A stretch of 41,115 nt of DNA from Candidatus Daviesbacteria bacterium RIFCSPHIGHO2_01_FULL_40_11. GTDB taxonomy: Bacteria > Patescibacteriota > Microgenomatia > Daviesbacterales > UBA10151. The translations under genes were made by a program, and so were the position numbers. Positions within the stretch are counted from its first letter, which is position 1. Each line of letters starts with the position of its first letter. Location: the NCBI GenBank assembly GCA_001776635.1, contig MFCP01000040.1, positions 12,552 to 53,666 on the forward strand. The letters are read 5' to 3'. The notes beneath the pieces were generated by a model. That model was not told where the DNA came from and ran no database searches. It saw only the letters and a program-made list of their open reading frames with translations. Below, one piece after another: positions 18,500-20,050 of the stretch.

Positions 18500-18949
18500 C
18501 TACTCTCCCAAAGCTATCCTTTCAAATCTTCCTACTTGTATATTTTCTCCTACTTTTCCAATCACCGTTTTTATCAACTCTTCTACAGTCAAAGAATTAT
18601 CCCTAATATACTCCTGGGACAAAAGTTCTTCAACGCTTGATGGGTTCATTGAGGCAATTTGTAAAGCCAATTCATGAGCTAAATTCTTAAAATCTTCTGT
18701 CCTTGCTACAAAATCTGTTTCACAAAGTACCTCTACCAAAACCCCAACTCTCCCACCATGAGAATAAACTTCCACCATTCCTGCTTTAACTTCCCTTTCA
18801 GCCTTAGAAGAAGCTTTATCAAGACCTTTTTTCTTAAGCCACTGTTTGGCTTTTGCCAAATCCCCATCAGACTCTTTCAAAGCCTCCCGGCAACCAGCAA
18901 TACCAGCCCCAGTTTCTTCTCTTAGTTTTTTAATAAATTCTATATCCAT
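18500..18949 (-). CDS. tsf: Elongation factor Ts, short form (start taken at MDIEFIKK)
   Basis: IKKLREETGAGIAGCREALKESDGDLAKAKQWLKKKGL, CETDFVARTEDF. Confidence 0.94.
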   Translation of the reverse strand: MDIEFIKKLREETGAGIAGCREALKESDGDLAKAKQWLKKKGLDKASSKAEREVKAGMVEVYSHGGRVGVLVEVLCETDFVARTEDFKNLAHELALQIASMNPSSVEELLSQEYIRDNSLTVEELIKTVIGKVGENIQVGRFERIALGE

Positions 18950-19111: not shown

Positions 19112-19954
19112 TTATTCTACCACCCTCTCCGATTCCTTAACCGCTTTCTTTTCTACCATCTCCTCAGCCTCTGCCACTTCCTCCTTTAATTCCTCCTGTA
19201 TCTCCTCATCTGTCTGTTTTGCTGCTTCTTTTTCCTCTTTTTTCAAAAGCTTCTCAGCTACTTTCCCTGCTTCCTTTTTACCCTCAGCATAGGCCAAAGC
19301 TACAGCTCCCACTAATATTTTAATAGATTTTATAGCATCATCATTACCAGGGATAGGATAATCAATTTCAGTTGGGTCAGAATTTGAATCTGCAATTGCC
19401 ACTACTTTTACGTTTAATCTCTGAGCTTCCCTAATGGCAATATTATCTGACACTGCGTCTACTACAAAAATTGCATCAGGAAGCTTATCAAGATTCATCG
19501 CTCCGGCAAAATCTTTTTGAAGCTTACTCATTTTTCTCTCTAAAAGTAATTGTTCTTTTTTGGTATATTTGGAAAGTTGCCCTTTTTCTTTCTGCTCTAA
19601 ATATTCTTTGAGTCTTTTAATATTTTTCTGAATTTGCTCAAAATTGGTTAAAAAACCTCCCATCCAACGCTCTACCAAAAATGGCGCTTGTAGTTCCTTC
19701 GCCAACTCCTCTATGATAGGTTTTGCTTGTTTTTTTGTTCCGACAAACAGTAATACTTTACCCTCTTTGCCTAGATTGTAAACAAACTCGCAGGCTTCTT
19801 TTAAGTATTGTTCGGATTGGGTTAAGTCAATAACATGGACACCCTCCCTGGCACCATAAATATATGGGCGCATTCTCGGGTGGCCACGTCTAACCTGGTG
19901 TCCAAAATGGACTCCGGCTTCCAGTAATTCTTGTAAACTAGGTAATTTGTACAT
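19112..19954 (-). CDS. rpsB: Ribosomal protein uS2
   Basis: LLEAGVHFGHQVRRGHPRMRPYIYG, RWMGGFLTNF, IADSNSDPTEIDYPIPGNDDA. Confidence 0.97.
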   Translation of the reverse strand: MYKLPSLQELLEAGVHFGHQVRRGHPRMRPYIYGAREGVHVIDLTQSEQYLKEACEFVYNLGKEGKVLLFVGTKKQAKPIIEELAKELQAPFLVERWMGGFLTNFEQIQKNIKRLKEYLEQKEKGQLSKYTKKEQLLLERKMSKLQKDFAGAMNLDKLPDAIFVVDAVSDNIAIREAQRLNVKVVAIADSNSDPTEIDYPIPGNDDAIKSIKILVGAVALAYAEGKKEAGKVAEKLLKKEEKEAAKQTDEEIQEELKEEVAEAEEMVEKKAVKESERVVE

Positions 19955-20007
19955 AGTCTCTTAATCCTCCTCATAGTCAGTGGTTTCTCAGAGACTTAAA
20001 CTATGAG
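19955..20007 (-). promoter_or_regulatory. Candidate rpsB leader RNA with two interleaved complementarities
   Basis: CTCATAGT/ACTATGAG (20000-20007 with 19970-19977) and AGTCTCT/AGAGACT (19990-19996 with 19955-19961), adjoining SD and ATG. Confidence 0.55.
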
Positions 20008-20021
20008 TGTGTAATAGCGGT

Positions 20022-20050
20022 ATTCTATCAGGATCAAACTAATTAAGCAA
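20022..20050 (-). promoter_or_regulatory. Candidate sigma70-like promoter for rpsB
   Basis: Minus strand TTGCTT - 17 bp - TAGAAT. Confidence 0.5.

Follow-up and report, generated by a model that had tools for sequence, protein, structure and literature searches.

Pseudoknots at the ribosome binding site give translational control in the leaders of S15 (rpsO) and other ribosomal proteins. For ribosomal protein S2, the closest described element is the rpsB motif, composed of a P1 helix, variable P2 and P3 hairpins that may be absent, and a pseudoknot between J2-3 and the 3' extension of P1 (PMC2704228). Its published distribution covers Proteobacteria, Cyanobacteria and some Firmicutes, and the phylum of the DNA analysed here is not listed (Meyer et al. 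2009, PMC2704228). In E. coli, uS2 represses translation of rpsB-tsf, the ribosome binding site lies outside the operator, and the mechanism is described as unclear (PMC10931766). Effective repression by S2 requires S1 in E. coli (Aseev et al. 2008, as summarised in PMC10931766). A search of open-licence papers found no description of the element in Patescibacteria or CPR. Here, we describe an rpsB leader from this group that is best explained as a whole (probability roughly 0.86) as a compact rpsB-motif (S2 leader) pseudoknot lying over the Shine-Dalgarno (SD) sequence and AUG and serving S2 feedback.

The window (the whole stretch of DNA analysed, 41,115 nucleotides from a Candidatus Daviesbacteria genome) carries rpsB, tsf and frr downstream of this leader (Table 1). 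On the minus strand, the leader reads ATTACACA-CTCATAGT-TTA-AGTCTCT-GAGAAACCACTG-ACTATGAG-GAGGATTA-AGAGACT-ATG, without P2/P3 hairpins. A first-pass annotation, made from the letters alone, had reported two interleaved perfect complementarities in the order A-B-A'-B' (A/A', 8 bp; B/B', 7 bp), with A' running into the SD and B' directly before the ATG, and its coordinates hold in the window (SD, 19972-19965; ATG, 19954). A/A' can be extended to 9 pairs with one G-U, B/B' is fully complementary, and the four strands (20015-19955, minus strand) can coexist as an H-type pseudoknot. The elongation factor Ts encoded by the operon is short (149 aa), and its match to the 293-position family model spans only positions 6-141.

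Table 1. Features of the rpsB leader and its downstream genes (window coordinates)
Feature	Position	Strand	Evidence or remark
-35-like hexamer TTGCTT	20045..20050	-	TTGNNT at the same place in relatives
-10-like hexamer TAGAAT, 17-nt spacer	20022..20027	-	TANNNT in 39 anchored family leaders
5' edge ATTACACA, conserved CA just 5' of P1	20008..20015	-	fixed distance to -10
A, P1 5' strand CTCATAGT	20000..20007	-	covariation, helix 1
B, pseudoknot helix 5' strand AGTCTCT	19990..19996	-	covariation, helix 2
A', P1 3' strand ACTATGAG	19970..19977	-	covariation; last three bases open the SD
Loop 3 GAGGATTA, between P1' and B'	19962..19969	-	conserved G[AC]GG...A, 7-9 nt
Shine-Dalgarno GAGGAGGA, P1'/loop-3 junction	19965..19972	-	anti-SD duplex -11.5 kcal/mol
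B', pseudoknot helix 3' strand AGAGACT	19955..19961	-	covariation; abuts ATG (19954)
rpsB, ribosomal protein S2, regulated gene	19112..19954	-	TIGR01011, 277.7 bits
tsf, elongation factor Ts (short form), next operon gene	18500..18949	-	TIGR00116, 123.4 bits

Taken alone, the window sequence is only mildly unusual. Its nested fold is ordinary (z = -0.6; 57 of 200 shuffles as good), an unremarkable result because nested folding cannot show a knot; that fold also contains a possible pairing between B' and early codons, which was set aside, as the codons differ between relatives (judged by eye). The first unrestricted pseudoknot scan was false in several leaders, and a motif descriptor with shuffled controls was therefore used. 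For the window leader, the score of the pseudoknot-aware scan was reached in 2 of 60 shuffles, and none of 100 shuffles matched the descriptor. Rfam at the gathering threshold gave no match anywhere in the window.

The decisive support for the predicted pairings comes from covariation in relatives. Both helices were present in 41 leaders when rpsB loci from 44 family genomes were scanned; the remaining three had an insertion inside A' (L025), lacked B' and the gene start (L178) or lacked the element (L015), and a covariance model located the elements of L023 and L025 further upstream. Among the first 30 family leaders, the descriptor was found in 27 (0.66 expected from shuffles). Covariation was counted in 39 distinct leaders, taken both within the family and from other families in the phylum, on extracted segments (A2), because the MAFFT alignment (A1) puts B out of register between two leader types. 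Standard pairs filled 98.6% of pair cells; shuffles gave 65.5%, and slid registers, where the pairing signal was abolished, gave 48-56%. Pairing was a requirement of the scan by which the leaders were chosen; this inflates the 98.6% but cannot create the diversity of pair types. Double-sided compensatory changes occurred in 14 of 15 pairs (213 such cells vs 63), comprising 8/8 pairs of P1 (helix 1) and 6/7 of the pseudoknot helix (helix 2), in which the seventh is an invariant U-A; C7 and A8, the CA just 5' of P1, are invariant. The covariation that the first-pass annotation had proposed to look for is thus found in A/A' and B/B' alike. Chance complementarity, for which the 2-in-60 shuffle result would speak, is refuted by compensatory change in nearly every pair across the 39 distinct leaders, and we give it a negligible probability.

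Several leaders depart from the common layout. In G015 (source of L015), rpsB lies ~25 nt after an upstream dihydrofolate reductase-like gene, a natural loss of the element. An insertion parts the knot from rpsB in L005 and L026 (genomes G002 and G022), where a short reading frame of about 22-27 codons begins at B' or immediately behind it, as though a leader peptide now started from the original start codon. L013 has a hairpin-like insert between SD and B' that brings loop 3 to 33 nt and retains the pseudoknot helix; other families of the phylum seem often to have inserts of this kind (e.g., L033, L056 and L203).

The first-pass annotation had allowed either a pseudoknot or a mutually exclusive order for the two helices. 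The pseudoknot stands, and the exclusive order is unlikely because each helix is conserved and a single pseudoknot can accommodate the two. A two-state RNA, with the A and B pairings as alternative hairpins, draws on the similar energies of the nested A/A' and B/B' hairpins (-10.7 and -9.7 kcal/mol, respectively), but the lengths of L1 (0-5 nt or a hairpin) and L3 (mostly 7-9 nt) allow the two helices to coexist, these lengths are conserved throughout the phylum, and the published motif is a pseudoknot; we regard two alternative hairpins as quite improbable.

The promoter TTGCTT-17-TAGAAT that had been noted just upstream is present, with similar boxes in relatives, and was not among the output of a generic promoter scan. 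A TANNNT box occupies a fixed upstream place in 39/39 anchored family leaders, in almost all of them 6-7 nt ahead of the conserved ATTACACA or ATCAAACA. Most of these leaders show a TTG-type -35 box ~17 nt further up. Given this fixed distance, the predicted transcript start is the 5' edge of the element (about 20015). Transcription is predicted to start ~8 nt before P1, upstream of segment A as the switch put forward by the first-pass annotation implied, so that every transcript from this promoter would have the knot at its 5' end.

The element appears confined to rpsB. Covariance model R1 gave exactly one match per genome, just upstream of rpsB, in 31/33 family genomes; its training set included most of those leaders (G012, G013, G025 and G030 were outside it). 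The strict descriptor matched once in the 41-kb window, and in 560 kb from other loci it matched nothing but rpsB leaders. Within the phylum at large, the motif descriptor was found in 28 of 50 leaders of an earlier set (1.45 expected) and in 30 of 60 further leaders (2.6 expected); several of those it missed have a loop-3 hairpin insert, as in L013, and were left uncounted. A second covariance model, R2, was insensitive as a whole-genome search within the phylum (10/286), and prevalence was therefore taken from the fetched leaders. The S2 leader switch probably extends to the whole Patescibacteria group.

The placement of the SD varies between leaders. The 16S gene was not found in the source genome assembly (a 12-nt match there to the anti-SD pattern is not 16S), and for this reason the 16S 3' ends of sister genomes (CACCTCCTTTCT) were used. 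Two genomes match the SSU model in separated pieces or over an over-long span (G007:C2:134615-136914 and G014:C1:486132-488301), suggesting inserts in their 16S genes. In most leaders, B' has AAGGA or AGGA and B has UCCU, so that the pseudoknot helix is itself an anti-SD/SD pairing. The window leader and 14 relatives have a B' without AGGA, and their P1'/loop-3 junction always reads GRGGAGG, with an anti-SD duplex there of -10.7 to -12.4 kcal/mol; the corresponding energies in the other type are -2.9 to -13.2 at the junction and -5.1 to -7.8 at B'. Overlap of the SD with B' is not exclusive to the phylum, since three leaders from other phyla (L121, L128 and L131) show it. On a tree of RpsB, the two SD types need at least 7 changes, of which well-supported branches force only 2; repeated relocation of the SD is likely rather than proven, and transfer of leaders between lineages is the alternative. 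A broader reading, which we hold tentatively and at somewhat less than even odds, is that the SD moved repeatedly between the AAGGA of B' and the GRGGAGG of the junction, within the family and even within a genus, under a constant binding architecture, and that the S2 switch is an ancient scaffold with a movable ribosome-binding-site module.

The E. coli leader, aacaca-CACGTATC-(22)-TTGGGGT-cggtaatatgg-GATACGTG-gaggcata-ACCCCAA, has the same order as that of the window, with CACA, CACGTATC/GATACGTG, GAGGCATA and TTGGGGT/ACCCCAA as the matching parts. The strict descriptor matched E. coli and six other rpsB leaders of other phyla and nothing else in 560 kb. Trained on the window's phylum only, R2 gave 13 matches at E<=10 in 281 kb of loci from other phyla, all of them on the rpsB strand and immediately upstream of rpsB, with E. 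coli among them; each match is weak singly (that of E. coli has an E of about 5), their placement is not. Members in other phyla share the CA before P1 and the G[AC]GG..A loop 3. RF01815 (rpsB) and RF00127 (t44) did not match the window's element even at E<=10, where only chance matches appeared; as a control, RF00127 matched the E. coli leader at 83.5 bits.

The first-pass annotation had suggested an independent S2-responsive switch. An S2 switch that evolved separately in this lineage, resembling the proteobacterial one by convergence, would account for the failure of the Rfam models of known S2 leaders and for an SD inside the knot, unlike in E. coli. We consider it very improbable: order of parts, flanking CA, a 7-9-nt G[AC]GG loop with a final A, and the regulated gene are the same, a model trained within the phylum picks only rpsB leaders in other phyla, and intermediates from many phyla with common conserved loop positions are already largely seen. 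Independence is not supported, as topology, flanking CA, and the sequence and length of loop 3 are common to this leader, the rpsB motif and the E. coli operator. Given the shared order, loop 3, descriptor matches and R2 placement, the best reading of the element is that it belongs to the known rpsB motif as a divergent member and was not invented separately.

By analogy with the E. coli S2 operator, we infer that S2 is the ligand and that it represses translation. S2 in excess of ribosome uptake would bind and stabilise the knot, which would keep the 30S subunit from the SD and AUG and stop S2 synthesis; synthesis of EF-Ts and ribosome recycling factor would probably stop too, by way of coupling or decay of the mRNA. 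With S2 in short supply, the short B/B' helix would open and translation would start. A switch over the SD and start codon of rpsB, as first proposed, is strongly supported by the comparison, and the autogenous control by S2 leaders cited for other bacteria agrees with repression of rpsB-tsf by uS2 in E. coli (PMC10931766). The same knot could instead be a constitutive tuner that sets a low fixed rate of rpsB initiation, or a stabiliser of the mRNA 5' end, with no protein bound. Covariation shows that pairs matter, not that a ligand exists, and the predicted transcript has the element at its very 5' end. A general tuner would nevertheless not be expected to be strictly confined to rpsB in every genome, or to have a CA and G[AC]GG in common with the S2-responsive operator (PMC10931766), and we judge a protein-free role unlikely. 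Counting against S2 feedback through an rpsB-motif pseudoknot are the silence of the Rfam S2-leader models, the weakness of the E. coli match to R2 when taken singly, the placement of the E. coli ribosome binding site outside the operator, the need for S1 in E. coli and the loss of the element in G015. The source genome has only a shorter S1-like protein (a 379-aa frame, below the family cut-off), so S1 dependence may differ from that in E. coli.

The kind of switch is already known; what is new is an SD that is embedded in the knot and probably movable, together with the extension into this phylum. A feedback circuit with experimental grounding is carried into a large and mostly uncultured branch of bacteria, one overlooked by present RNA-family models. 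In E. coli it is a puzzle how S2 can block a ribosome binding site that its operator does not include; the puzzle would have a simple answer in this phylum, where the site is inside the knot, and the two natural designs, differing mainly in SD position, are ready-made test constructs.

Set beside known systems by description, the S15 (rpsO) leader offers a likeness of mechanism only, with another gene and another ligand protein. With the rpsB motif (RF01815), the window's element shares its position 5' of rpsB, P1, and a stretch of the P1 loop paired with the 3' extension; relatives L002, L007 and L014 have inserts at the P2 position, and L077 has one at the P2 or P3 position. The pseudoknot helix has 3-5 pairs in the motif and 7-8 here, where the SD is inside the knot, B' touches the start codon and the element falls below Rfam detection. 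The E. coli rpsB-tsf operator has the same CACA-P1, a G-A-G-G loop 3 of 8 nt, the pseudoknot helix and the rpsB-tsf operon. It differs in its large P2/P3 hairpins, which the window leader does without, and in an SD and AUG downstream of the knot (AUG ~22 nt after B'), whereas the SD of the window leader lies in P1'/loop 3.
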